A stretch of 64,000 nucleotides of DNA from Raineyella sp. W15-4 (GTDB lineage: Bacteria > Actinomycetota > Actinomycetes > Propionibacteriales > Propionibacteriaceae), in assembly GCF_033170155.1 (NCBI RefSeq), contig NZ_CP137079.1, positions 1,302,001 to 1,366,000 of the forward strand, written 5' to 3'. The notes beneath the pieces were generated by a model that was given only the letters and a program-made list of their open reading frames with translations, was not told the DNA's origin and did not search any database. The position numbers and the translations under genes were made by a program. Shown in pieces: positions 2 through 15,329 of the stretch. Each line of letters opens with the position of its first letter. Positions within the stretch are counted from its first letter, which is position 1.

Positions 2-1180
2 GTGCAGGCGATCATCGGCGCGGTGATGTGTGTCGCGGCCTGGCTCGCCGCGAACTCCCGGGGCCGGCTCAAGGCGGTGATCCTGGTCGGGGTCACCGGC
101 TACGGGCTGGCGCTGCTGTTCCTCATCCACGGGGCGCCGGACCTGGCGCTCACCCAGGTGCTCACCGAGACCGTGTCGATCGTGGTCTTCGTCCTGGTGC
201 TGCGGAAGTTGCCGAAGTACTTCACCGACCGGCCGCTGACCTCGATGCGCTGGTGGCGGATCGGGCTGGCCATCGCCGTCGGCGCCACCGTGGTCGGCGC
301 GGTCCTGGTGGCCGCCACCGCCAGGGTCGCCGAGCCGGTGTCGGGCGCGCTCTACACCCAGGCCTGGGAGATCGGTCACGGCACCAACATCGTCAACGTC
401 ACCCTCGTCGACGCCCGTGCCTGGGACACCTTCGGGGAGATCTCGGTGCTGCTGATCGCCGCCACCGGCGTCGCCTCGCTGATCTTCATCCGCGCCCGCT
501 ACACCGTCCGTACGCCGGCCCAGGCCCGTGAACAGGCGGCCCGGGAGGGGCGCGGGGCGCGCGGGTACTCCTGGCTGCGAGGCGGCCAGGCGCTCTCCCC
601 GCTGCGCCGATCGCTGGTGATGGAGGTGGTCACCCGGCTGCTCTTCCCGGTGATGGTGATCACCTCGGTCTACGTCCTGATGTCCGGGCACAACTGGCCG
701 GGGGGCGGGTTCGCCGGCGGGCTGATCGCCGGGCTGGCGCTCGTCCTGCGCTACCTGGCCGGGGGCCGGCACGAACTGGACGACGCCGCCCCGGTCGACG
801 CCGGTGCGGTGCTGGGCTCCGGCATGGTGGTCGCGGTCGGCTCCGCTGTCGCGCCGCTCGCGGTGGGCGGCTCGGTGCTGGAGTCGTACGCCCTGGACAT
901 CCACCTGCCGTTCCTCGCCGAGGCACACGCCTTCGGCCGGGTCTGGCCGTTGCTGGGCGACATCCACGTGGTCACCTCGGTCTTCTTCGACATCGGCGTC
1001 TACCTGGTGGTGATCGGGCTGCTGCTCGACATCGCCCGGTCGCTGGGCGCCGGCATCGACGTCCAGACCGAGCAGGACCGCGCCCCGCACCCGGCCGAGG
1101 GCGGCGGGGTCCGCGGCGGACGCAGCGCGCTGCGGCTGCCCGGCCGTCCGTTCGAGGAACCCCGCGAGACGGAGGTCTGA
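2..1180 (+). CDS. mnhA: Mrp/Mnh Na+/H+ antiporter subunit A/B fusion, 3' part (5' end outside window)
   Basis: This is the C-terminal part of the large MrpA-type subunit fused to MnhB, in a membrane complex that exchanges Na+ for H+. The reading frame is open to the first base, so the N-terminal proton-channel domain lies upstream. About residues 20-70 match the MbhD-like region (APDLALTQVL), about 95-165 the MbhE-like region, and about 200-345 the MnhB domain (GHNWPGGGFAGGL). All of it is hydrophobic and multi-spanning. The stop shares one base with the start of the next gene (TGATG), so the operon is translationally coupled. The A/B fusion is common in actinobacteria. Confidence 0.9.
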   Translation: MQAIIGAVMCVAAWLAANSRGRLKAVILVGVTGYGLALLFLIHGAPDLALTQVLTETVSIVVFVLVLRKLPKYFTDRPLTSMRWWRIGLAIAVGATVVGAVLVAATARVAEPVSGALYTQAWEIGHGTNIVNVTLVDARAWDTFGEISVLLIAATGVASLIFIRARYTVRTPAQAREQAAREGRGARGYSWLRGGQALSPLRRSLVMEVVTRLLFPVMVITSVYVLMSGHNWPGGGFAGGLIAGLALVLRYLAGGRHELDDAAPVDAGAVLGSGMVVAVGSAVAPLAVGGSVLESYALDIHLPFLAEAHAFGRVWPLLGDIHVVTSVFFDIGVYLVVIGLLLDIARSLGAGIDVQTEQDRAPHPAEGGGVRGGRSALRLPGRPFEEPRETEV

Positions 1181-1773
1181 TGGCACCCAACCTCACCCTC
1201 CTCCTCATCGCCGGCTTCCTCATCGCCTGCGGGGTGTACCTGCTGCTGGAGCGATCGCTCACCCGGATCCTGATCGGGATCCTGCTCGCCTCGAACGGGG
1301 TGAACCTGCTCTACCCGATCATCGCCGGGCCCGCGCGGCTGCCCGCCTTCATCGGCATCAGTCCCCGCGACGGGATCACCGACCCGTTGCCCCAGGCGAT
1401 GGTGCTGACCTCGATCGTGATCACCCTGGCGACCACCGCGTTCCTGCTGACGATGGCCTACCGGGCCTTCCAGGTGAACGGCCACGACGAGGTCCAGGAC
1501 GACGTCGAGGACGCCGTCATCCGCCGCCTGGCACTGCTGGACGAGGCCTCCGAGTCGTACGACGCCGGGGTCACCAGCGGTGAGCCCGGTGAGGAGGCCG
1601 GCAGTGATGTCGTCGGCGGGACAGCGCCGGAGCCGGGCGACCTCGGTCGGTCCGGGCTCGAGGCCGGCAGCGCTGTCCGGGACGGCGCCGCCCCGGGCAG
1701 CGCGGCGCCGGTGGCCGGCGACCCCGCCGGGCGGGCGGGCGCGGAGACCGGCGGCGGAGAGGCGGACCGATGA
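1180..1773 (+). CDS. mnhC: Na+/H+ antiporter subunit C (MnhC/MrpC) with long hydrophilic tail
   Basis: NuoK-like small subunit of the Mrp antiporter. Residues 1-110 carry three predicted membrane segments and the family pattern GVYLLLERSLTRILIGI. The family is usually about 110-125 residues; this protein has 197. The extra 80 or so residues form an acidic, Gly/Ala/Pro-rich tail with no recognisable fold. It overlaps subunit A/B by one base and subunit D by four. Function is secure from context and the conserved core; the role of the tail is unknown. Confidence 0.92.
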   Translation: MAPNLTLLLIAGFLIACGVYLLLERSLTRILIGILLASNGVNLLYPIIAGPARLPAFIGISPRDGITDPLPQAMVLTSIVITLATTAFLLTMAYRAFQVNGHDEVQDDVEDAVIRRLALLDEASESYDAGVTSGEPGEEAGSDVVGGTAPEPGDLGRSGLEAGSAVRDGAAPGSAAPVAGDPAGRAGAETGGGEADR

Positions 1774-3290
1774 CCTGGCTGGTGCCGATGCCGATCCTGC
1801 TGGCCCTCTTCGGAGCCGGGCTGACCCTGATCCTGGGCCGACGGCCGAACGCCCAGCGCGCCGTCTCCGTCACCGTCCTGTCGCTGATCGTGGCGGTCGC
1901 CGCCGTGCTGGCGTACCGGGCCGATCGGGTCGGCGTGCAAGTGACCCGGATCGCCGGCTGGCCGGCACCGCAGGGCATCTCGCTGGTGGCCGACCGGCTC
2001 TCGACGCTGCTGCTGCTGGTGTCGTCGGTGATCTGTCTGCTGGTCCTGCTCTTCTCGCTGGGTCAGGAGGAGGAACAACGGCGCCGCGAGACGCCGATCT
2101 CGATCTTCCACCCGACCTTCCTGGCGCTCACCGCCGGGGTGTCGAACGCCTTCCTCACCGGCGACCTGTTCAACCTGTACGTCGGCTTCGAGATGCTGCT
2201 GTTCGCCTCCTTCGTTCTGCTCACCCTGGGCGGCACCGGGGAACGGATCCGGGCCGGCACCACCTACGTGGTGGTGTCCCTGGTCAGTTCGCTGCTCTTC
2301 CTGGTCGCCCTGGCCGCCGTGTACGCCGCGACCGGCACGGTCAACATGGCCCAGGCCGGGGCCCGGCTCGCGGCGCTGCCGATCGAGGTCCAGCAGGTGA
2401 TCCACTTCCTGCTGATCACCGTCTTCGGGATCAAGGCCGCCGTCTTCCCGCTGTCCGCCTGGCTGCCGGACTCCTATCCGACCGCCCCGGCGCCGGTCAC
2501 CGCGGTGTTCGCCGGCCTGCTCACCAAGGTCGGGGTGTACGCGATGATCCGGACCCAGACCGTGCTCTTCCCCGACAACGCGCTGCAAGTGCCGATGCTG
2601 GTGATCGGCATCCTCACCATGATCCTCGGCATCCTGGGTGCCATCGCCCAGGGCGAGATCAAGCGGATGCTCTCCTTCACCCTGGTCAGCCACATCGGCT
2701 ACATGGTCTTCGGCATCGCGCTGGACTCCGACGCCGGGCTGTCCGGCGCGATCTTCTACACGGCGCACCACATCCTCGTCCAGACCGCCCTGTTCCTGGT
2801 CGCCGGCCTGATCGAGCGCCGCGGCGGGTCGACCTCGCTCAACGAGCTGGGTGGGCTGGCGTCCGCCTCACCGGTGTTGGGGGCGCTGTTCCTGGTCCCG
2901 GCGCTCAACCTGGCCGGCGTCCCGCCACTGTCGGGCTTCATCGGCAAGGTCGGCCTGCTGCGGGCCGGCGTCGGTGCCCACAACTGGCTCGCCGGCGTCG
3001 GGGTGGGCGCGGTGCTGCTGACCAGCCTGCTCACCCTGTTCGCCGTGGCGAAGATCTGGAACCGGGCGTTCTGGCAGGCGATGCCGCTGGTGGAGAACGA
3101 GGACGGCAAGCTGGTCGAGGCGGGCCTGCCGCTGCAGCCGTCGATGGCCGCCGTCGCGGGAGCGCTGGTCGCCGTCAGCCTGACCCTGACCGTGTTCGGC
3201 GGCCCGTTGTTCGGGTTCACCGACCGGGCGGCGCACGACGCGCGCAGCGGCGCGTACTCCGCCGCCGTGCTGCCGGAGGGGGTGCGATGA
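1770..3290 (+). CDS. mnhD: Na+/H+ antiporter subunit D (MnhD/MrpD)
   Basis: NuoN/NuoM-like proton-translocating subunit of 506 residues, the normal length. It has about 14 predicted membrane helices. Conserved Proton_antipo_M features are visible, including FNLYVGFEMLLFASFVLLTL near residue 130 (with the family glutamate), the lysine in FGIKAAVFPLSAWLPDSYPT near 215, and HHILVQTALFLVAGLIE near 330. The start ATG overlaps the subunit C stop (ATGA), and the end overlaps subunit E in the same way. Confidence 0.95.
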   Translation: MTWLVPMPILLALFGAGLTLILGRRPNAQRAVSVTVLSLIVAVAAVLAYRADRVGVQVTRIAGWPAPQGISLVADRLSTLLLLVSSVICLLVLLFSLGQEEEQRRRETPISIFHPTFLALTAGVSNAFLTGDLFNLYVGFEMLLFASFVLLTLGGTGERIRAGTTYVVVSLVSSLLFLVALAAVYAATGTVNMAQAGARLAALPIEVQQVIHFLLITVFGIKAAVFPLSAWLPDSYPTAPAPVTAVFAGLLTKVGVYAMIRTQTVLFPDNALQVPMLVIGILTMILGILGAIAQGEIKRMLSFTLVSHIGYMVFGIALDSDAGLSGAIFYTAHHILVQTALFLVAGLIERRGGSTSLNELGGLASASPVLGALFLVPALNLAGVPPLSGFIGKVGLLRAGVGAHNWLAGVGVGAVLLTSLLTLFAVAKIWNRAFWQAMPLVENEDGKLVEAGLPLQPSMAAVAGALVAVSLTLTVFGGPLFGFTDRAAHDARSGAYSAAVLPEGVR

Positions 3291-3964
3291 GCCGGGAGCC
3301 TCACGGCGGGGACGGGAGCCGGGTGCCCACCCGGCGGGTCCGCCCCGGCTGGCGGTCGATCCTGATCGGCGTGCTGATCTGGTGCATCCTGTGGGGCCGT
3401 GTCGATGTGAAGACGATCCTCGGCGGCCTGGTCGTCACCGGCGGGGTGGCGCTGTTGTTCCCGCTGCCGGCGATCCGCTTCCGTGGCCGGATCCGGCTGC
3501 TGGGCGTGATCCGGCTGGTCCTCACCACACTGCTCGACCTCGTCGAGTCGTCCTGGCGGGTCGCCGTGCTCGCCGTGGCCTGGCGCCGACCGGTCCGCAG
3601 CGCCATCGTCCGGGTCCGGCTGCGGACGAACTCCGACCTGCTGATCGCGATGATCGTCGAACTCATCGGTCTGGTCCCCGGGTCGGTCGTCGTGGAGCAG
3701 ACGCGTGCGCCGTCCCAGGTCTTCGTCCACGTCCTCGACGTCCGTGACCGGTCCCACCTGGACGAGGCGTACGCGATCGTCCGTACGGTCGAGGAACGGG
3801 TGATCCGTGCCTTCGGGACCGACGAGGAACTCGCGGCGTTGGCCGCCCCGCCCGGCGCGGTCCCGACCTCGGCGGCTGCCGCGGCGGTGACCGAGCCGGC
3901 GGTAGGTGCGCCGCGAGCCGCCACCGGGGATCTCCCGTCGACCGATCCGGAGGTGGACCGATGA
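3287..3964 (+). CDS. mnhE: Na+/H+ antiporter subunit E (MnhE/MrpE)
   Basis: Small Mrp subunit needed for complex assembly. I start it at the ATG that overlaps the subunit D stop (ATGA), giving 225 residues. The same frame is open far upstream, but that part is only shadow sequence of subunits C and D. Residues 20-75 form two membrane helices (ILIGVLIWCILWGRV), followed by a conserved cytoplasmic domain (LIAMIVELIGLVPGSVVVE). The C-terminus after about residue 175 is an Ala/Pro-rich extension beyond the usual family length. Confidence 0.9.
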   Translation: MSREPHGGDGSRVPTRRVRPGWRSILIGVLIWCILWGRVDVKTILGGLVVTGGVALLFPLPAIRFRGRIRLLGVIRLVLTTLLDLVESSWRVAVLAVAWRRPVRSAIVRVRLRTNSDLLIAMIVELIGLVPGSVVVEQTRAPSQVFVHVLDVRDRSHLDEAYAIVRTVEERVIRAFGTDEELAALAAPPGAVPTSAAAAAVTEPAVGAPRAATGDLPSTDPEVDR

Positions 3965-5957: not shown

Positions 5958-7890
5958 GTCACTGTTCCCGCGACTCGAGCCGCTGCTGGCCCGGGTCGGC
6001 AAGCCGATCCAGTACGTCGGCGGGGAGCTGAACTCCGTCGTCAAGGAATGGGACTCCGCCGAGGTCCGCTGGTGCCTGTCCTACCCGGATGCGTACGAGG
6101 TGGGCCAGCCCAATCAGGGGGTCGCGATCCTCTACGAGGTCCTCAACGAGCGCGACTGGATCCTGGTCGAGCGGACGTACACCGTCTGGCCGGACCTGGC
6201 CGCGATGATGCGCGCCTCCGCGGTGCCGCAGTTCACCCTCGACGCCCACCGCCCGGTGCGGGCATTCGACGTGCTCGGCTTCAGCTTCTCCACCGAGCTC
6301 GGCTACACCAACATGCTGGAGACGATCGACCTGGCCGGCATCCCGTTGCACGCGGTCGACCGCGGCGAGGACGACCCGATCGTGATCGCCGGCGGTCACG
6401 CCGCGTTCAATCCGGAGCCGATCGCCGACTTCCTCGACGCCGCCGTGCTCGGCGACGGCGAGGAGGTCTCGCTGGCGATCTCGGCGGTGATCCGGGAGTG
6501 GAAGGCCGAGGGCCGTCCGGGTGGCCGGGACGGGCTGCTGCTGCGGCTGGCCGAGTCGGGCGGGGTGTACGTGCCGCGGTTCTATGACGTGGACTACCTG
6601 CCGGACGGCCGGATCCGCCGGGTGGCGCCGAACCGTCCCACCGTGCCGTACTCGGTCCGCAAGCACACGCTGATGGACCTCGATCAGTGGCCCTACCCGA
6701 AGCATCCGCTGGTCCCGCTCGCCGAGACCGTCCACGAGCGCTACTCGGTGGAGATCTTCCGCGGCTGCACCCGGGGCTGCCGGTTCTGTCAGGCCGGGAT
6801 GATCACCCGTCCGGTGCGGGAACGGTCGATCGAGACGATCGGCGCGATGGTCCAGGCGGGCCTGGAGGCGACCGGTCTGGAGGAGGTCGGTCTGCTCTCG
6901 CTGTCCTCGGCCGACCACTCCGAGATCGTCGAGGTCACCAAGCAGCTCGCCGACCGTTACGAGGGGTCGAACGTGTCGCTGTCGTTGCCGTCGACGCGGG
7001 TCGATGCCTTCAACATCGACCTGGCCGACGAGCTGTCCCGCAACGGCCGGCGCTCCGGCCTGACCTTCGCCCCCGAGGGCGGCTCGGAACGGATGCGGCG
7101 GGTGATCAACAAGCAGGTCGACGAGGAGGACCTGATCCGTACGGTGGCCACCGCGTACTCCAACGGCTGGCGGAACGTGAAGCTGTACTTCATGTGCGGC
7201 CTGCCGACGGAGACCGACGAGGACGTCCTGGCGATCGCCGACCTGGCCCGCAAGGTGATCGAGACCGGCCGGGAGGTGTCGGGGCGCAAGGACATCCGGT
7301 GCACCGTCTCTATCGGTGGGTTCGTGCCGAAGCCACACACCCCGTTCCAGTGGGCCGCCCAGCTCGACGCCGAGACCACCGACCGGCGGCTGCAACGGCT
7401 CCGCGACGTGATCCGGGCCGACAAGCGCTACGGGCGCTCGATCGGCTTCCGCTACCACGACGGCCAGCCGGGCATCGTCGAGGGGATGCTGTCGCGTGGT
7501 GACCGCCGGGTCGGTGCGGTGATCGAGGCCGTCTGGCGCGACGGCGGTCACTTCGACGGCTGGTCGGAGCACTTCTCGTACGAGCGCTGGCTGCGGGCGG
7601 CCGAGGAGACCCTCGCCCCGCAGGGCGTGGACATCGCCTGGTACACCACCCGGGAACGCGACTACGACGAGGTGTTGCCCTGGGACCACCTGGACGCCGG
7701 TCTCGACCGAGACTGGCTGTGGGACGACTGGCAGGACGCCCTCGACGAACAGCCGGTCGACGACTGCCGCTGGAACCCCTGCTACGACTGCGGCGTCTGC
7801 CCGCAGCTGGACACCGAGATCCAGATCGGCCCGAGCGGTCGTACGTTGCTGCCGCTGACCCCGGTCCGCAACCCGCTGGCCGCGGACTGA
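5908..7890 (+). CDS. TIGR03960-type B12-binding-like radical SAM protein
   Basis: Large radical SAM protein, 660 residues. Residues 1-220 resemble a B12-binding-like domain (GGHAAFNPEPIADFLDAAVL). The radical SAM cluster motif CTRGCRFC lies near residue 290, and the C-terminus has further cysteines (CRWNPCYDCGVCPQLDTE) that could bind another cluster. The biochemical role of the family is not established. Its usual neighbour is the DUF2344/TIGR03936 radical SAM-linked protein. Here that partner starts at 17841, about 10 kb away, with the polysaccharide locus in between. ATG 5908 has a GGGAG site. Confidence 0.85.
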   Translation: MSIATSPPDLRTSSGPESLFPRLEPLLARVGKPIQYVGGELNSVVKEWDSAEVRWCLSYPDAYEVGQPNQGVAILYEVLNERDWILVERTYTVWPDLAAMMRASAVPQFTLDAHRPVRAFDVLGFSFSTELGYTNMLETIDLAGIPLHAVDRGEDDPIVIAGGHAAFNPEPIADFLDAAVLGDGEEVSLAISAVIREWKAEGRPGGRDGLLLRLAESGGVYVPRFYDVDYLPDGRIRRVAPNRPTVPYSVRKHTLMDLDQWPYPKHPLVPLAETVHERYSVEIFRGCTRGCRFCQAGMITRPVRERSIETIGAMVQAGLEATGLEEVGLLSLSSADHSEIVEVTKQLADRYEGSNVSLSLPSTRVDAFNIDLADELSRNGRRSGLTFAPEGGSERMRRVINKQVDEEDLIRTVATAYSNGWRNVKLYFMCGLPTETDEDVLAIADLARKVIETGREVSGRKDIRCTVSIGGFVPKPHTPFQWAAQLDAETTDRRLQRLRDVIRADKRYGRSIGFRYHDGQPGIVEGMLSRGDRRVGAVIEAVWRDGGHFDGWSEHFSYERWLRAAEETLAPQGVDIAWYTTRERDYDEVLPWDHLDAGLDRDWLWDDWQDALDEQPVDDCRWNPCYDCGVCPQLDTEIQIGPSGRTLLPLTPVRNPLAAD

Positions 7891-7894
7891 GAGG

Positions 7895-9134
7895 TCACCG
7901 CGACTGGTCCCCGGGGGCGGTGACGAGGCGCTGTGCCACCGTGGTCACATCAGGAGCTGCATGCCTGGCGTCGGGCCTCGGCCGGGCGGCGGAGCGTACC
8001 GGAAGGATCTCGGGACGACGCCGCGCGGCGATGTCCTCGACCCAGCCCAAGCACAGGACGGCGACGAGGAGCACGGCCAGGGTCGCGCCGAAGGCGATCA
8101 GGCCGGACTGCCAGGTGAAGGTGTCGACATCCGCCACGATGCCGAACCTCGGGAGGCCCCACAGCGCGACGAAGATCGCCGTGTTGCCCCAGAGATAGAT
8201 CGTCATCGCTCGGCGGTTGGAGAGGGTCACCCAGTGCGAGAGCACCGGGACACGGCTCACCCACTGCAGTGTCAACGGCAGACGCAGCAGGATCATCGTG
8301 AAGCCGAGGTTGTACAGGGCGGTCGCCATCGGGATGTCCGAGACGTTGAACAACCCCTGGTCGGGACCGTGGAACAGCAGGGACCAGACCAGGGCCGCCA
8401 CGACCAGCAGGACGCCGATGATGACGGTCCTGGCGATCGAGAGACGGCGCAGCAGTCCGTCCGTGGTGGTAGAAGCCGATCATCCAGCAGGCCGCGTAGG
8501 TGGCCACGGAGAGGACTCCGTCGGCGAGGGCGTTGTCGAGGTTGAGGATGTGTCCGGCTTCCAGCAGGAGCACCACGAAGGGGAGCACCATCATCGGGCG
8601 GCGCCAGTGACGCCACAGCCACAGCAGGCCGCCGGAGATCAGCATCAGCCACAGGTACGTGCGGATGTACCACAACGGAACGGCCCATTCGGCCCCGATG
8701 TCACTGGCCGGCGGCGTGACCAGCGGGAAGATCCACCCCAGCACACTGGGACCGAGCGCACTCGCGTCCGCGGTCGTCGCGGTCCAGCCGGTGACGACCA
8801 TGATCGGCACCAGGATGAGACCCATCGCCCACAGCGGCGGCAGGAGGCGGCGCAGCCGCTTCAGGACCACCGGGCGGACCCCCGTGGTCGACCTGTCCAG
8901 GGAGGCGGCCATCAGCGAGCCCGCGAAGGCGAACATCACCCCCATCGACGGGAAGATCAGCGGAAGCCAGGCCCAGCCGAAGAGGTGGAACAGCAGGACA
9001 CGAGTCAGCGCAGCGGACCGCAGGACATCGATGTAGCGGTTGCGTACCCGGTCACCGGTGGCCGGAGACGGCGAGTGCACAGAGGAGGCCGAGGAGTTGC
9101 CTGTCGGAGTCTCGGCCGGGTCGACCGCAGTCAT
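7895..9134 (-). pseudogene. Acyltransferase 3 family membrane protein, frameshifted
   Basis: Acyltransferase_3 (PF01757-like) integral membrane protein, probably acylating a surface sugar polymer. The N-terminal half (9134 to about 8455) has RYIDVLRSAALTRVLLFHL and several helices ending in WMIGFYHHGR. The C-terminal half continues in another frame (about 8455 to 7895; LLRRLSIARTVIIG, then NRRAMTIYLWGNTAIF). The frames meet around 8450-8462, where a one-base indel would restore about 413 residues. Both halves look well conserved, so this is a recent mutation, phase variation or sequencing error. ATG 9134 overlaps the deacetylase-synthase stop (ATGA) and has an AGGAG site. Confidence 0.75.
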
Positions 9135-11533
9135 GATGAGGCTCCTGCCAATGAGGGCCGACCGGCTGGGGCGGAGCCGTGCTCGGCGTCCATCGATGCG
9201 GAGCCGTGCTCGGCGTCCATCGATCCGGTGCGTTCGAGCTTGTTCCACCTGACCTTGGTGCCCTTCCAGGCGGCGAACACCGATGCGTAGAGCAGGTAGG
9301 CACGGAGCGGCTCATACATCAGGCGGTAGATCGGCACCATCCACAGGTGCGCCCAGTCCTCGTGCATCATCCGGATGGACAGCACCACGAACAGCAGCTG
9401 GACGCCGACGAAGAGGGCGAAGAAGGTGAGAGCGATCCGAGGTCCCTCACGGTCGAGGCTGAGCACCGCCATGAACGTGGTGAAGGGGATGAAGACCAGC
9501 GGGATCAGCAGCGACAGCAAGTAATTCGGGAGCACGTACCATCCCAGGCCCGGATGCTTGGGGCTGAACAGCAGCCCGCGGTGCTTCCACATCGCCTGCA
9601 TGGTGCCGTACGTCCAGCGGACGCGTTGCTTGAGCAGGTCGTCGACCGACTCGGGAGCCTCGGTGAAGGCATAGGCATCGTCGTCCTGGGCCACCCGCCA
9701 CCCGAGCTCGTGCAGTGTCAGGGCCAGATCGCAGTCCTCGGCCAGGTTGTCCGTGGCGTACCCGCCGGCACTGATGATCGCCGACTTGCGCCAGGCCGCG
9801 CACGCGCCCGGAATGATGGAGATGCCCTCGATCGCGTCCTGCGCCGAGCGATCGAGACCGATCTGGGTGAGGTATTCCAGTGCCTGCCAGCGGGTGAGGA
9901 GGTTCGTCCCGCGGTTGCCGACGCGGACCACGCCCGCGACTCCGCCGAGCTTGCCGTCCGGATCGTTGGCGAAGTGCCGCACCAGATTGCCGACGGTGTC
10001 CTCGGTGACGATGGTGTCGGCGTCCAGGGTGACGATGATCTCCCCCCGGGCCATGGTCAGCCCGTTGTTCAGCGCGTGGGACTTGCCTCCGTTGGGCTGG
10101 GTGACGAGACGAACTCGTGGGTCCAGGGCGGCCAGCGCCGCGACGACGTCGCCCGTCCCGTCGGTGGAACCGTCGTTGACCACGAGGACCTCGGTGATCG
10201 GGAACCGCGATCTCAGAACGGTCCGGATCGTCCGCTCGATCACGGGCTCCTCGTTGTAGGCGGCGAGGAGCACAGTGACCGGAAGACTCATCTCCGTCGC
10301 ATCGGGCCAGGCCACCCTGCGCCGGCGACGGAAGCGACCCAGCGCGAGGAAGGAGTTCAGCCCGCCGTACACGATGGTCAGCAGCACGGTGAGCCCGAAC
10401 ATGAACACCATGATCGGGGTGGGCCAGGTGTCGTAGGCGGTGAACGTGAAGAGGGCGATCCGGTCGGCCGGGGTCACCGTTGCCGGCGCGTTCACCTGCC
10501 CGATCGTCGGGTTGGCTTCGGTCACCGACGTGAACGTGTAGCCGTACTTCTTGGCCTCGGGTACCAGACGCTTCGTGATGTAGTCGACGCCGCGCTCACG
10601 ATTCGGGCCACCGGCATCGTGCATGAGCACCGTGAAGTTGTTGCCCGTGCTGAAGTCGGGGAGGCTGATGTCCGCCGCGGTCCCGTGCGGATCCTCGGCG
10701 TGCTGCCAGTCGAGAGTGTCGAAGTCGTACGTCGCGTGGATGTACCCCATCCGCTGGGCGCGCAGCAGCGCCTCGACCTGGTCCTCCGAGGTGCTGGTGT
10801 CGCTGCCGTCGTCGTACGGCATCCGCCACAACGTCGTCGTGTCCCCGGTGAGCGCCCGGATGATGCGTTCGTTCACCACCAGCTCGAACGTCTCGCGCCA
10901 GCGTGGCATGGCACCGAGGTCGGGGTGGTAAATGGTGTGGCTGGCGATCGTGTGGCCGTCCGCGATCATCCTGCGGACGAGCTCCGGGTGCAGGATGATG
11001 TTGCGTCCCTGCATGAAGAACGTGGCGTGGATGCCGTTCGCCTTCAGGGCATCAAGGAGCTCCGGGGTCACCTTGCCGTCGGGCCCGTCGTCGAAGGTCA
11101 GCGAGATCGTCTTCTGGACGTCGGCGCCGTAGCCGTACGACTGGACCGCGTACTGGCTGTCCTTGACCTTGTCGGCGTCCTCCGGCGTCAGGGTGGCGAC
11201 ACGTTGACGCGTGAAGGGTTCGATCGCCTCGACGTTGCCGTTGATGCGGGTCAGTTGGACGAGTCGGGTGAGCGGGCCCACCCCGAACGACGGCACATGC
11301 GGACCCGTGTCGGCGACGGTGAGCTGTGAGCTCTTCGCGTTCGCCGGGGCGTGCAGCGGCCGCAGCGCGATGGTCAGCAGGTAGCCGCCGGAGACGAGCG
11401 CCACCGCCAGGAGCACTATCAGGGCATATCGTGTGCGGCGCCATCGCCTGCCCTCGGGGTCAGCGAACACGTAGGTCCCGGAGACGCGTGCCTTGCGTCG
11501 AGGAGCCTTACGTCGCGGAGTCGTTCTGGACAC
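9131..11533 (-). CDS. Bifunctional CE4 polysaccharide deacetylase / GT2 synthase
   Basis: Fusion of a NodB-type deacetylase and a processive family 2 glycosyltransferase, resembling PgaB/IcaB plus PgaC/IcaA in one chain. After a basic N-terminus with YVFADPEGRRW and one helix, the CE4 motifs appear near residues 145-330: TFDDGPD, SHTIYH (metal HxxxH), RMPYDD, TLDW and LMHDAGG. A helix near 390 is followed by GT2 motifs (VVNDGSTDG, LDADT, AEDCDL, QRVRW) and C-terminal helices. It likely makes and deacetylates a poly-N-acetylglucosamine-like polymer, as proposed for MatB in Streptomyces. GTG 11533 gives 800 residues; the frame stays open upstream to 11677. Confidence 0.88.
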   Translation of the reverse strand: MSRTTPRRKAPRRKARVSGTYVFADPEGRRWRRTRYALIVLLAVALVSGGYLLTIALRPLHAPANAKSSQLTVADTGPHVPSFGVGPLTRLVQLTRINGNVEAIEPFTRQRVATLTPEDADKVKDSQYAVQSYGYGADVQKTISLTFDDGPDGKVTPELLDALKANGIHATFFMQGRNIILHPELVRRMIADGHTIASHTIYHPDLGAMPRWRETFELVVNERIIRALTGDTTTLWRMPYDDGSDTSTSEDQVEALLRAQRMGYIHATYDFDTLDWQHAEDPHGTAADISLPDFSTGNNFTVLMHDAGGPNRERGVDYITKRLVPEAKKYGYTFTSVTEANPTIGQVNAPATVTPADRIALFTFTAYDTWPTPIMVFMFGLTVLLTIVYGGLNSFLALGRFRRRRRVAWPDATEMSLPVTVLLAAYNEEPVIERTIRTVLRSRFPITEVLVVNDGSTDGTGDVVAALAALDPRVRLVTQPNGGKSHALNNGLTMARGEIIVTLDADTIVTEDTVGNLVRHFANDPDGKLGGVAGVVRVGNRGTNLLTRWQALEYLTQIGLDRSAQDAIEGISIIPGACAAWRKSAIISAGGYATDNLAEDCDLALTLHELGWRVAQDDDAYAFTEAPESVDDLLKQRVRWTYGTMQAMWKHRGLLFSPKHPGLGWYVLPNYLLSLLIPLVFIPFTTFMAVLSLDREGPRIALTFFALFVGVQLLFVVLSIRMMHEDWAHLWMVPIYRLMYEPLRAYLLYASVFAAWKGTKVRWNKLERTGSMDAEHGSASMDAEHGSAPAGRPSLAGASS
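9171..9224 (-). repeat. 27-bp perfect tandem duplication near the 3' end of the deacetylase/GT2 gene
   Basis: Two identical 27-bp units (9171-9197 and 9198-9224) lie in tandem. They encode SMDAEHGSA twice in the hydrophilic C-terminus, about 40 bases before the stop codon. The unit is nine codons, so the frame is kept. Confidence 0.9.
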
Positions 11534-11539
11534 TATGTT

Positions 11540-11554
11540 CTTACCCCCAGTAAG
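11540..11554. promoter_or_regulatory. Small dyad upstream of the deacetylase/GT2 gene
   Basis: CTTAC-N5-GTAAG (11540-11554) sits 7 nt upstream of GTG 11533 on the minus strand. It could be an operator or overlap a promoter. No function is shown by sequence alone. Confidence 0.3.
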
Positions 11555-11680
11555 AGCTGTGTGGAGCCTGAGCGGTCCCCCCCCGGTCAGAGGAGGGAGC
11601 AGCGATGTTCCCCGCGCGAGCTTACCCCACCGTGCGGGCCGGAGGGAAATTCCGATTCGTCGCCGATTCGGCGGCACCGG

Positions 11681-13888
11681 TCACGGGGTTGATGGCCCGG
11701 GGCTCGGCGCTGGCTCGGACGGTTCTGTCGTAGGACTCGGCGGTGTGGAGGGGGATGCGGGGGCGACCGGGACAGTGGGCGGCACGACGACCGGCGGGGC
11801 AATCGACGCCGGGGGCTGCTGTGACGACGCGACGGAGGGCGCGGGGGAGTTCGGGGCGCCGGCCGTCGAACGCCCGGCCGAGGAGGTCGAGGGCGTGCCC
11901 GCGACGGCGAGCGGACTCAGCGAGCTCTGCGGCTGCTTCGCGGCGTAGGACGAGGTGTCGAAGTCCTCCACCGGCTGGCCCGTGGTGGCCACCTTCATGT
12001 AGTCCAGCCAGGTCATGGTCGGGTAGCTGGCTCCGAAGAAGGTCTGGTCCCCGGGCGCGCGATACGGGTCGAGGTCGGCGTTGCCGTCGTCCCCCGCGAC
12101 GAACATCACCGCGGTCGAGATCTGCTTGGTGTAGGCGATGAACCAGCCCGCCGCGATCTGGTCGCCGACACCGGCGGTGCCGGTCTTGCCCGCCACCGGA
12201 CGCCCCAGCGCGGAGGCGCGGACACCGGTGCCCTCGTTGACAACCGACTGCAGGGCGTAGGTGGTGTCGGCAGCGACTTTCGTGTCCACGGTGTTCTGCT
12301 CTGCGGGATCGGCCTCGTAGAGGACGTTCCCGGCGCTGTCCTTGACCTCGCGGATGACGTGGACACCATTGCGGGTGCCGCTGTTGGCGAGGGTGGCGTA
12401 CGCGTTGGCCATGTCGACCGGGCTCGCCTCCGCCCCGCCCAGTGCGACGCGGTTGGTCGCATCCCATCCGCCCGCGCTGGGGGCACCGGCGTCGTTCGCG
12501 GCCCGGATGACCTCCTGCGGACCGTTCTTCATCTTCGACGTCAGGTCCACGAAGGCGGTGTTGATCGAGGCCGCGGTCGCCTGCAGCAGCGTCACCGTGC
12601 CGTACTGGGTGCCGAACTCGTTGCGGACAGGCTGTGACTCTCCCGGCGGCGTGAAGGTGTCGCCGCGCAGGGGCGTGTCGAGCGTGAAACCGTTCCGAAG
12701 CCCCGCGACGAGGCCGAACGCCTTGAACGTCGAGCCGGTCATCCGGGCCGTGGTGGCCCAGTTGCGTGAGTTCTTCACGAAGTCGTCGCCGCCGTACAGG
12801 GCGACCAGTCCACCTGTTGCGGTGTCGACCGACGCGATGGCGGCGTGGACACCTGCTCCCGTCTGGTTGCGCGCCTTGGCCGCGTCGGTTGCCTGGGCCT
12901 GGTAGGTCTGGGCGGCCTTCTCCGCTGCCGCCTGGGCCGCCGCGTCGAACGTCGTGGTGATCTGCAGGCCCCCACCGTTGATCTGGGCGTCGGTGAAGTC
13001 GAGGGACAGCAGTTCCTTCTGTGCCATGTAGACCAAGAAGCCCCGCGGGCCCGCGTAGACGGCCGGCGGCGGGACATCCGGCAGCTTCGGCATGGCACCC
13101 CGGTACTCGTCGAACTGTTGCTGGGTGATCGACTTCTCCTCGAGCATGCCCGAGAGCACGTACGCATAGCGGGCCTCGAGCCGGGACGTGTTGTCCGCCG
13201 TGATGCTGGGGTCGAGGAGGCTGGGGTTCTGGACCACCGCCGCGAGCACCGCCGCTTCGGGCACGGTCAGATCCTTGGCGTCCTTGCCGAACCAGCTCTG
13301 TGCCGCGGTCTGGACGCCGTACGCCCCGCGGCCGAAGTAGACGGTGTTGAGATAGTTCGTGAGGATCTCGTCCTTTGACTCACGGTTGTTCAGCTTCAGC
13401 GCCAGCACCACCTCCTTCAGCTTGCGGGTGACGGTGCGTTCCGACGTCAGGTACATCAGCCTGATGTACTGCTGCGTGATGGTCGAGCCTCCCTGCAGGT
13501 CATGGCCCGTCAGGATCGCGCCGAGTGCACGAGCCATGCCCGTGGGGGAAATCCCCGGGTTGGTCCAGAACGTACGGTCCTCGGCGGCGACCGCCGCGTC
13601 CTTCATCGCCTGGGGGATCTGCTCGCTCGGCACGGAGAGGCGGTTCTGTTCCGCCAGGGTGGCGAGTTCGGTCTTCCCGTCGGCGAAGTAGAGGCGCGAC
13701 AGGCTGGACTGGAAACTCGCGTTCGGATCAGGGACCTGGGTGACGACGTACAGGCCACCGAAGGCCAGGCCGGCTGCCAGCGCGAGCGCGACGACTCCGG
13801 CCACGAGCCCGACCATGATTCGCTGCCACAGAGCGAGCTTCGCCCACCGTGAGGTGGTGGCAGTACTGGTCTCGGTCACGTCAGCCAT
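11681..13888 (-). CDS. Class A penicillin-binding protein (transglycosylase/transpeptidase)
   Basis: Bifunctional peptidoglycan polymerase of 735 residues with one N-terminal membrane anchor (residues 25-48). The GT51 domain (about 70-250) shows the catalytic-glutamate region AAEDRTFW and GGSTITQQYIRLMYL. The transpeptidase domain (about 320-640) has the Ser-x-x-Lys box in GSTFKAF, a SIN motif and KTGTAG. A Ser/Pro/Ala-rich tail ends the protein. ATG 13888 has an AGGAG site 7 nt upstream; the frame extends further upstream without support. It lies between the chitosanase and the deacetylase-synthase, pointing to a shared cell-envelope task. Confidence 0.93.
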   Translation of the reverse strand: MADVTETSTATTSRWAKLALWQRIMVGLVAGVVALALAAGLAFGGLYVVTQVPDPNASFQSSLSRLYFADGKTELATLAEQNRLSVPSEQIPQAMKDAAVAAEDRTFWTNPGISPTGMARALGAILTGHDLQGGSTITQQYIRLMYLTSERTVTRKLKEVVLALKLNNRESKDEILTNYLNTVYFGRGAYGVQTAAQSWFGKDAKDLTVPEAAVLAAVVQNPSLLDPSITADNTSRLEARYAYVLSGMLEEKSITQQQFDEYRGAMPKLPDVPPPAVYAGPRGFLVYMAQKELLSLDFTDAQINGGGLQITTTFDAAAQAAAEKAAQTYQAQATDAAKARNQTGAGVHAAIASVDTATGGLVALYGGDDFVKNSRNWATTARMTGSTFKAFGLVAGLRNGFTLDTPLRGDTFTPPGESQPVRNEFGTQYGTVTLLQATAASINTAFVDLTSKMKNGPQEVIRAANDAGAPSAGGWDATNRVALGGAEASPVDMANAYATLANSGTRNGVHVIREVKDSAGNVLYEADPAEQNTVDTKVAADTTYALQSVVNEGTGVRASALGRPVAGKTGTAGVGDQIAAGWFIAYTKQISTAVMFVAGDDGNADLDPYRAPGDQTFFGASYPTMTWLDYMKVATTGQPVEDFDTSSYAAKQPQSSLSPLAVAGTPSTSSAGRSTAGAPNSPAPSVASSQQPPASIAPPVVVPPTVPVAPASPSTPPSPTTEPSEPAPSPGPSTP

Positions 13889-13989
13889 GGATCTCCTGGG
13901 TGATGGACGCTCTGCGGGAGGTGTCATCGGGAACGTCCGCAGAGGTGAAGTGGGTGGTGTACATGGACAGGGCGCCCGGCCTGCAGGCC

Positions 13990-14037
13990 GCCGACGGTCA
14001 GAGGCTGCACAAGGCCGACGGTCAGAGGCCGCATAAG
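13990..14037 (-). repeat. 24-bp tandem duplication across the chitosanase stop codon
   Basis: Units 13990-14013 and 14014-14037 differ at two or three bases. The stop TGA (14024-14022) lies in one unit, and the other unit carries a second in-frame TGA 24 bases downstream. The gene ends ...LCGL-stop and the duplicate would read ...LCSL-stop. Confidence 0.85.
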
Positions 14038-14936
14038 GGGGACACCTCGATCCGGAAGTGGTCGCCGTAGATGTCCCAGGCCAGTGGCGCGCGCAGGTCC
14101 AGCTCGCCGGCGGCCAGCAGGCCCCGCTGGGCGGTGGACACCCGGGTGGCCGTCCCGGGTGAGACCTCCTGCAGCATGTACGCCTCACGGGCGGTCAGCC
14201 AGGCCGCCAACCAGGTCTTCTCCTGGCCACCCTCGGACGGGGGCCTGGCATGCTGCAGGGCGTCGGCACGGATGGTGCGGAACCCGCTCTCACCGTGCTG
14301 GATCATCGCGTCGTAGTAGGCGAACTGTCCGAAGGACCGCAGGCCGTCCTGGTCGGCGGCTCGCAATGCCGGCGCCAGGTACCAGTCGTGGGCCAGTTGG
14401 AGCTGGGTATCACGGAAAGTGGGATCGGTGGCGGCCTCTTTCCAGGCCTGCACGAAAGTGGGGCCGAGTCCGGTCTGCGACGAGGTCCCGTTCACCGCCT
14501 CAAGGGCGGACAGGTACGGTGCCAGCGTGTTGTTGTCGGGCTGGGCGGCGACGTAGCGGCGGACCAGTTCGAGCATGCTGGAGGTCTTCGACGTGAAGCC
14601 GATGATCCCGCCGGTGTAGCCCCGGTTCCACTGGTCGCTGCCCTCGACGTTGTACTCGATGTAGCCGACCTGGTCCTCCCAGTACAGCGAGGAGTTCTCC
14701 GCCGAGGAGACCATCATCTGGGCGACCGCCTGCTTGCGCGGATTGCTGTGGAGATCTCCGGTCAACGCCAGCGGCGACACGCATCTGACGAACTGGTCGT
14801 GCCGGGGGAGCGACGGCTGCACCACGGTCAGCAGTGCCATGAGAAGCACCAGCGCACCGATGATGCCGACGACCCAGCCGATCCGACGACGTCGACCGCG
14901 ACGCCGGCTGGGTCCGGCATCACCCGACCCGGCCAT
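14022..14936 (-). CDS. GH46 chitosanase, membrane-anchored
   Basis: Endo-beta-1,4-chitosanase of glycoside hydrolase family 46, which cleaves deacetylated glucosamine polymers. After a basic segment and one helix (about residues 20-42), the GH46 fold covers the rest: SSAENSSLYW holds the family catalytic Glu, RGYTGGIIGFTSKT the conserved loop, FGQFAYYDAMIQHG the core helix, and LDLRAPLAWDIYGDHF the usual C-terminus. The catalytic Asp region is changed: a longer loop places an Asp (GSDQWNRGY) four residues before Arg. ATG 14936 has a GAGGTGG site; a GTG at 14975 is an alternative. Located outside the membrane, it could trim or release the polymer made by the downstream synthase. Confidence 0.87.
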   Translation of the reverse strand: MAGSGDAGPSRRRGRRRRIGWVVGIIGALVLLMALLTVVQPSLPRHDQFVRCVSPLALTGDLHSNPRKQAVAQMMVSSAENSSLYWEDQVGYIEYNVEGSDQWNRGYTGGIIGFTSKTSSMLELVRRYVAAQPDNNTLAPYLSALEAVNGTSSQTGLGPTFVQAWKEAATDPTFRDTQLQLAHDWYLAPALRAADQDGLRSFGQFAYYDAMIQHGESGFRTIRADALQHARPPSEGGQEKTWLAAWLTAREAYMLQEVSPGTATRVSTAQRGLLAAGELDLRAPLAWDIYGDHFRIEVSPLCGL

Positions 14937-14996
14937 GTCGTCCACCTCGGTGGCGTCGCGGGTCATGCCGGTCACCCGGCACCGCCGTCGTGGCCA

Positions 14997-15128
14997 CTAC
15001 GACGCTCCGAGTACGATCATCACGGCGAGGAGGCTGCCGAGGGCCTTCAGGAGCAGCCAACGCCTGCCCCCCGGATCGGCGGAGACGAAATTCCCCCTCG
15101 CCGGGGACCGGTTGCCGGCTCCGGGCAT
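14997..15128 (-). CDS. Putative 43-residue membrane micro-protein of the aminopolysaccharide locus
   Basis: A short open frame of 43 codons: polar N-terminus, then NFVSADPGGRRW, then one hydrophobic helix (LLLKALGSLLAVMIVLGAS). The juxtamembrane pattern closely resembles YVFADPEGRRW at the same place in the deacetylase-synthase at 9131-11533, which argues that it is real. A GTG directly precedes the ATG. A 23-codon frame (from ATG 15199) ends in a TGATG overlap with this start and may be a coupled leader. It lies 60 nt before the chitosanase ATG, so it probably heads the operon. No function can be assigned. Confidence 0.5.
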   Translation of the reverse strand: MPGAGNRSPARGNFVSADPGGRRWLLLKALGSLLAVMIVLGAS

Positions 15129-15217
15129 CACGCCGCGGAGTCGAGTCTCTCAACAATGGTCGCTCCCCCCAGGTCGGCCACGGTGACGTGCCTACCCATC
15201 TGAGCGAGCTGTGCACC

Positions 15218-15241
15218 GGTTACGAGGCCCTAAAGGTAACC
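15218..15241. promoter_or_regulatory. Dyad GGTTAC-N12-GTAACC upstream of the aminopolysaccharide operon
   Basis: Perfect 6-bp arms separated by 12 nt lie between the malic enzyme terminator and the micro-protein/chitosanase genes. The spacing suits a dimeric regulator. GTAAC half-sites recall MtrA-type sites of other actinobacteria, but that is only a resemblance. The roughly 200 nt between the micro-protein start and malic enzyme hold this dyad and the terminator, and no other clear gene. Confidence 0.4.
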
Positions 15242-15275
15242 CAACCGGCATCGGGGGACAACCAAATATCTCGGG

Positions 15276-15303
15276 CTGCCCGACCGGCATCGCGGTCGGG
15301 CAG
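15276..15303 (-). terminator. Rho-independent-like terminator after malic enzyme
   Basis: Perfect 10-bp stem (CTGCCCGACC / GGTCGGGCAG) with an 8-nt loop, 27 nt past the malic enzyme stop. On the minus strand it is followed by a short T-containing tract. Confidence 0.65.
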
Positions 15304-15329
15304 CGGGGCGCGGGGTGGCCGGGGAGAGG

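Follow-up and report, generated by a model that had tools for sequence, protein, structure and literature searches.

Loci of the mat type control pellet formation in Streptomyces. The staphylococcal icaADBC genes provide GT2, CE4 and acyltransferase 3 (AT3) functions for a partly deacetylated poly-N-acetylglucosamine (poly-GlcNAc, PNAG) and, to our knowledge, include no gene for a hydrolase. In the Streptomyces matA-matB-SCO2961 locus, MatB is a CE4-GT2 fusion protein, SCO2961 is an icaC orthologue, MatA is described as having no known domains, and the product is PNAG (PMC5972031). The hydrolase domain of the Gram-negative PgaB protein cuts deacetylated PNAG and needs an active deacetylase (PMC5933820). 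Here we describe a locus of Raineyella sp. W15-4 (genome G000, one contig of 3.96 Mb) found in a stretch of 64,000 nucleotides, hereafter called the window, in which a CE4-GT2 gene and an AT3 gene are accompanied by a gene coding for a variant member of the GH46 chitosanase family, referred to as GH46v. It is tentatively proposed that GH46v is a surface-tethered hydrolase clipping the partly deacetylated polymer of the same locus.

Like Streptomyces mat, the locus contains a CE4-GT2 fusion and then an IcaC-like acyltransferase, and it differs from mat in that the MatA-type box is part of the synthase, both in this genus and in G815, an actinobacterial genome from outside the window's order, in the addition of GH46v and, in the window only, in an extra class A penicillin-binding protein (PBP). 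It shares the set of GT2, CE4 and AT3 functions with ica, from which it is distinguished by the fusion of CE4 and GT2. Judging by these sequences, the core appears to be an exopolysaccharide locus of the mat/ica type, the pair of CE4-GT2 and AT3 being of an already known kind. According to the initial annotation, the genes for making, deacetylating and acylating one surface polymer lie together, which for an amino-sugar polymer is the known mat/ica arrangement (PMC5972031). The GT2 domain has its best NCBIfam match with the PgaC_IcaA model (TIGR03937) at 194 bits, below the equivalog cut-off of 422, meaning that it is related and not an equivalog; its score with the NodC model is 80 bits. This match, together with the correspondence of CE4-GT2 and AT3 to matB and SCO2961, was counted in favor of a PNAG-type polymer. 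Invariant in a three-way alignment of CE4-GT2 proteins are TFDDGPD, HTxxHP and RMPY in the CE4 part and DAD, ED and QxxRW in the GT2 part, which we take to be the motifs of the CE4 and GT2 families.

GH46v matches GH46 strongly (Pfam PF01374, 223 bits with a cut-off of 27; PDB entries 1chk, 4ily and 4olt, E 9e-58 to 6e-56). It resembles the cluster A chitosanases (CsnN174, OU01, SACTE_5457) in keeping the acid Glu and most of the structural residues, and is unlike them in the replacement of Asp40, an adjoining five-residue insertion, a terminal Cys pair, the N-terminal start and the linkage to polymer synthesis. The CsnN174 segment DIGDGRGYTGG, with the base Asp40, corresponds to YNVEGSDQWNRGYTGG in the window, where the Asp40 region has become YNVEG with the five-residue insertion (residues 108-117). 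After 37 CsnN174 positions had been mapped onto GH46 sequences, Asp40 was present in all 65 other chromosomal GH46 parsed (55 of 56 loci, L057 being the unparsed one, and 10 more). It was absent from all six complete GH46v copies, namely those of the window, the congener G001, G815 and the Micrococcales metagenome-assembled genome (MAG) L031, which has three; all six carry a Glu-containing YxVEG and five extra residues instead. The Glu-containing altered segment is also present in a fragment from a Phycisphaerales MAG contig (L032), and the Glu of YxVEG is the sole acidic residue of the segment common to all seven sequences. Each of the six complete copies retains Glu22 (Glu93 in the window), Arg42, Thr45, Asp145, Arg190 and Arg205, in line with what a functional hydrolase would need.

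All six also have two cysteines outside the domain, the first shortly preceding it and the second at the very C-terminal end (Cys65 and Cys315 in the window), with none inside, and both terminal Cys residues occur in none of the 65 other GH46. A disulfide is likely, since the two termini are close to each other in GH46 structures (PMC4663542). By eye, the proteins of the window and G001 start with a hydrophobic anchor and that of G815 with a lipobox-like sequence. The protein had been annotated initially as a membrane-anchored GH46 chitosanase; the family and, by eye, the anchor are confirmed, the absence of the catalytic Asp having been missed. The usual Asp is kept in the aligned GH46 from phages (n = 4), staphylococcal plasmids (n = 3) and IMG/VR (n = 13), the motif inspection leaving out five actinobacterial plasmid GH46 matches and the listed matches without a fetched locus. 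A pattern search in viral contigs found no relative of GH46v; GH46 with the usual Asp do occur there.

The six complete GH46v sequences form one clade with a support of 100/97 in a tree of 80 rows. The gene is maintained by purifying selection, as the ratio of nonsynonymous to synonymous substitution rates (dN/dS) between the window and G001 is 0.31, which rules out a pseudogene; the ratio is 0.16-0.17 for two flanking genes and 0.45-0.60 for the GT2, CE4 and AT3 parts, the polymer genes diverging more than GH46 between the two genomes. No GH46 match other than GH46v is present in its own genome, G001 or G815, so in these three it is not an additional copy alongside a nutritional chitosanase. 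In L031, three GH46v genes stand in tandem (810-3809), two of them with near-identical mature domains, which may be a duplication or an assembly effect; a neighboring gene used as a guide to the family of this MAG gave matches of 53-59% only. The L032 fragment (3655-3870) reads YNVEGNAKENR and has no N-terminal Cys; as the contig ends inside the gene, the fragment was not long enough to be placed in the tree. Because YNVEG...ENR recurs in a contig from another phylum, the altered segment is a conserved form in distant bacteria and not a product of decay, which speaks for function. The genus of G815 is represented by one genome, and a GH46 match was found in 0 of 13 genomes from the order of G285 by a search giving little information.

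Four of the five loci with the GH46v motif adjoin AT3 or CE4-GT2 genes, L032 being the fifth. The order is CE4-GT2, AT3, GH46v both in G001, at the same malic enzyme/radical SAM site as in the window, and in G815, whose CE4-GT2 is 51% identical over 789 amino acids (aa); in L031, AT3 is followed by the three GH46v genes, with the contig starting inside AT3. A linkage scan covered 71 loci, of which 70 were used as L188 is a wider copy of another, with L032 outside the scan. It showed an AT3 gene within 1.5 kb in three of four GH46v loci versus none of 66 other GH46 loci (Fisher p 7e-5), or in three of five with L032 counted as unlinked (p ~2e-4 by hand); both p-values are only indicative because the loci are not independent. 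The AT3 gene of the window is on the same strand ~5 kb away from GH46v, since PBP and CE4-GT2 genes intervene. It had been suggested that a GH46 cutting gene belongs with the polymer genes, and this stands in a narrower form, without the PBP and the micro-protein: no other genome was found with all five genes in this order, and the three-gene core of CE4-GT2, AT3 and GH46v recurs. Among the papers listed by our literature search, none joins GH46 or chitosanases with PNAG.

Eleven other GH46 loci had wider flanks (L034-L039, L098, L184-L187). Among them, G369 (L098) has a usual-type GH46 gene, which keeps the usual Asp and is the divergently oriented neighbor of a complete mat-type locus consisting of box protein, CE4-GT2 and AT3 genes (6938-8023 and 8636 onward), and the GH46 gene of G625 has an AT3 gene ~7 kb away without CE4-GT2.

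In the proposed mechanism, the CE4-GT2 protein would polymerize N-acetylglucosamine (GlcNAc) and partly deacetylate the chain outside the cell, and AT3 would modify the polymer or help its exit. GH46v, held at the surface by its N-terminal hydrophobic anchor, would cut the emerging partly deacetylated polymer, presumably with the conserved acid equivalent to Glu22 and with the invariant Glu of YxVEG in place of Asp40. Such cutting could control the length of the chains or their release, a function possibly served by the PgaB hydrolase domain for PNAG in Gram-negatives. The likeness to PgaB is one of proposed role only, with a hydrolase co-encoded with the synthase; the C-terminal hydrolase domain of PgaB, unlike GH46v, is fused to the deacetylase (PMC5933820). 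If the proposal is true, Gram-positive mat/ica-type loci would have a dedicated hydrolase filling the role of the PgaB domain with an unrelated, lysozyme-like fold, GH46v would be a candidate for the enzyme that sets chain length or release in mat-type loci and might serve as a reagent for amino-sugar biofilms, and the question whether Gram-positive poly-GlcNAc loci carry their own hydrolase would become directly testable. More speculatively, the GH46 clade may have been recruited from foreign chitosan to a self-made polymer, with a substituted or relocated Glu base and with poly-GlcNAc, perhaps beta-1,6-linked, as the substrate; if the clade is tied to self-made polymers, the GH46 family would gain a new role and possibly a new specificity and catalytic base.

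A number of points weigh against this proposal. PNAG is beta-1,6-linked and the known GH46 enzymes cut beta-1,4 linkages. The D40G change leaves 3% activity, and MAFFT placed a different Glu at the Asp40 column in the genus than in G815 and L031. Among GH46 enzymes with demonstrated activity, Asp40 is invariant apart from a single reported exception (PMC4663542). Asp57 and His200, the counterparts of which start substrate binding, are lost in the window and G001 (Asp57 being replaced by Ser), and this loss weakens the hydrolase reading in the genus and gives some weight to a rather unlikely rival, the main one, namely that GH46v has lost hydrolysis and is a surface-anchored binding protein holding or guiding an amino-sugar polymer. 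Such a protein would agree with the replacement of Asp40 in every complete copy and with an insertion within the most conserved segment; it is at odds with the retention of the acid Glu, Arg42, Thr45 and the Arg-Asp-Arg network in all six, with Asp57 and His200 being kept in G815 and L031, with the recurrence of the altered segment in another phylum, and with the use of a Glu as the base by GH19 of the lysozyme superfamily (PMC2976769). Other points concern the clade and its linkage. The clade has long branches (1.43 for the stem of window and G001, 1.18 for G815), so some branch attraction is possible; the congener G002 has CE4-GT2 and no GH46 match; and the locus may not be fully working in the window because AT3 is frameshifted. 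In L032, only the GH46 query matched and the 3.7 kb upstream contain no CE4-GT2 or AT3, so that, as far as this contig extends, the motif also occurs outside the mat-linked clade. A general link of GH46 to mat genes is opposed by the 23 genomes of the class in which both queries matched, with the matches lying within a few kb only in the window and G369, counts that are lower bounds. An ordinary secreted or surface chitosanase serving nutrition or protection against external chitosan, with an accidental polymer-gene neighborhood, would suit the strong Pfam score, the L032 contig and the roles known for GH46 (PMC4663542), and is nevertheless improbable given the catalytic change, the cysteine pair and the linkage in 4/4 actinobacterial loci from at least two orders versus 0/66 other GH46 loci within 1.5 kb.

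With the hydrolase reading retained, the polymer itself could be true bacterial chitosan (beta-1,4 poly-GlcN/GlcNAc, GlcN being glucosamine), cut by GH46v as other GH46 cut chitosan. The linkage of a GH46-family gene to the synthase, the GlcN-recognizing Asp57 kept in G815 and L031, and the best PDB matches of the CE4 domain, which are named peptidoglycan or chitin deacetylases, point that way; the higher GT2 score with PgaC/IcaA than with NodC, the loss of Asp57 in the genus and the dispersin-sensitive PNAG reported as the MatAB polymer (PMC5972031) make this quite improbable. It had also been thought that all five genes form one system, the class A PBP tying the polymer to peptidoglycan synthesis. 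All five indeed share a strand and are flanked by the malic enzyme and radical SAM genes. Against this, the core occupies the same site in G001 and has no PBP with it there, and the CE4-GT2 gene has its own leader downstream of the PBP gene. Moreover, class A PBP matches (E <= 1e-30) number four in the window's genome versus three each in G001, G002 and the congener G003; the window PBP shares 70% identity with its paralogue in the same genome and 69-72% with a single PBP in each of the congeners. No PBP match was present in the fetched stretches of G001, G002 and G815, and none was seen in L031. The five-gene system is therefore very improbable and the assignment of the PBP to the surface-polymer system was dropped; the PBP is probably a lineage-specific extra, fourth class A copy which the system does not need.

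The features of the locus are listed in Table 1, the transcription order on the minus strand (7.9-15.1 kb) being 43-aa open reading frame (ORF), GH46v, class A PBP, CE4-GT2, AT3. All five minus-strand genes were located where the initial annotation had placed them and all except the 43-aa ORF are backed by Pfam, with the correction that AT3 is not a single ORF. The description of the locus as compact holds for CE4-GT2 and AT3, which overlap by 4 bases, and for the 43-aa ORF and GH46v, spaced by 21 bases, and less so around the PBP, which is flanked by gaps of ~130 and ~150 bases.

Table 1 Features of the mat/ica-type locus in the window (positions in the 64,000-nucleotide stretch).
Feature	Position	Strand	Support
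AT3 (SCO2961/IcaC-like), frameshift-split at ~8463-8470	7895..9134	-	Pfam Acyl_transf_3, E 8e-11
CE4-GT2 fusion (MatB-like synthase/deacetylase) with N-terminal MatA-type box	9131..11533	-	Pfam Polysacc_deac_1, E 9e-32; Glycos_transf_2, E 8e-32
Class A PBP, extra lineage-specific copy, probably outside the conserved system	11681..13888	-	Pfam Transgly, E 5e-59; Transpeptidase, E 4e-28
GH46v with N-terminal hydrophobic anchor (by eye)	14022..14975	-	Pfam PF01374, E 4e-66
43-aa ORF with box FVSADPGGRRW and one hydrophobic stretch, probable relict	14997..15128	-	Sequence, leader alignment
Leader of the 43-aa ORF, resembling the CE4-GT2 leader (11534-11718)	15129..15322	-	Local alignment

The N part of AT3 (9134 to ~8463) and its C part (~8470 to 7895) are in different frames, the break falling at the HHDG motif conserved in relatives. 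The identity to the AT3 proteins of G001, G815 and L031 is 51-56% for the N part and 43-49% for the C part, which had no Pfam match at E <= 0.001. The AT3 of G815 is one open frame, and the frameshift in the window is either a sequencing error or a recent loss.

The N terminus of the window CE4-GT2 protein consists of the fused MatA-type box VFADPEGRRWRR and a hydrophobic stretch. A class-wide search, limited to scoring the two top candidates of each genome and therefore giving lower bounds, found CE4-GT2 relatives at E <= 1e-80 in at least 47 of 394 genomes. In 19 of the 24 loci fetched outside the genus (20 + 4), there is a small membrane protein with a PVFVDxSGRR-type box upstream of CE4-GT2, which by analogy would be MatA-like; in the window, G001, G002 and G815, the CE4-GT2 protein itself carries the box, fused at its N-terminal end. 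The idea that the box is a genome-wide N-terminal signal was rejected, as an exact degenerate DNA pattern for it matched only the CE4-GT2 gene in the window's own genome; the pattern could not match the 43-aa ORF because the F of its box sits at a different spacing.

The 43-aa ORF, with no Pfam or NCBIfam match at E <= 0.001, occupies the place of CE4-GT2 in G001. In local alignment, its leader and opening codons match the leader and beginning of the window CE4-GT2 gene (score 84, maximum of 51 in 100 shuffles), and its region weakly matches the CE4-GT2 start of G001 (65, shuffle maximum 57); the two CE4-GT2 starts align with each other at chance level (46, shuffle maximum 48). It has a degenerate box and a hydrophobic stretch, as in the MatA-like proteins, but no C-terminal tail, and its leader is CE4-GT2-like. 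The start-to-box length differs by four bases by hand count, so the original start is out of frame. The micro-protein that had been included in the system thus exists, with its hydrophobic stretch, and by the leader alignment is best read as the probable relict 5′ end of an older, second CE4-GT2 gene, not needed by the system. Against a relict, its third-position G+C is 37/43 (p 0.012 at 70%), and it could therefore still be translated. In G001 (L033, 3243-11739), none of the genes for malic enzyme, CE4-GT2 and radical SAM protein is contained in a single frame, so this assembly may be error-rich.

No riboswitch or known RNA was found over the window at the gathering threshold, and RNA family searches at the two leaders gave one chance-level match (E 0.37, below the gathering score) for one and none for the other. 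A consensus search found no promoters, and four terminator-like sites were observed on the minus strand at 15092-15283 with 1.6 +/- 1.6 expected. The G+C content is 66.8-67.8% at 8-14 kb; the adjoining 8 kb on the left have 70-73% and the adjoining 10 kb on the right 70-72%. For a foreign origin of the locus, this gives no more than a weak hint, because dips to 66-67% are seen elsewhere in the window, at 28-30 and 34-36 kb.

Usual-type GH46 genes occur in other settings as well. In three staphylococcal plasmids (L135, L136, L137), the GH46 gene is followed by a gene for a GH5-type or cellulase-family hydrolase, and in L135 and L137 it is close to a malic or malolactic enzyme gene. Streptomyces phages (L138, L140, L141) carry a GH46-domain gene with the catalytic Asp kept between the major tail protein and tape measure genes, the product of which is perhaps a tail depolymerase against an amino-sugar coat of the host.

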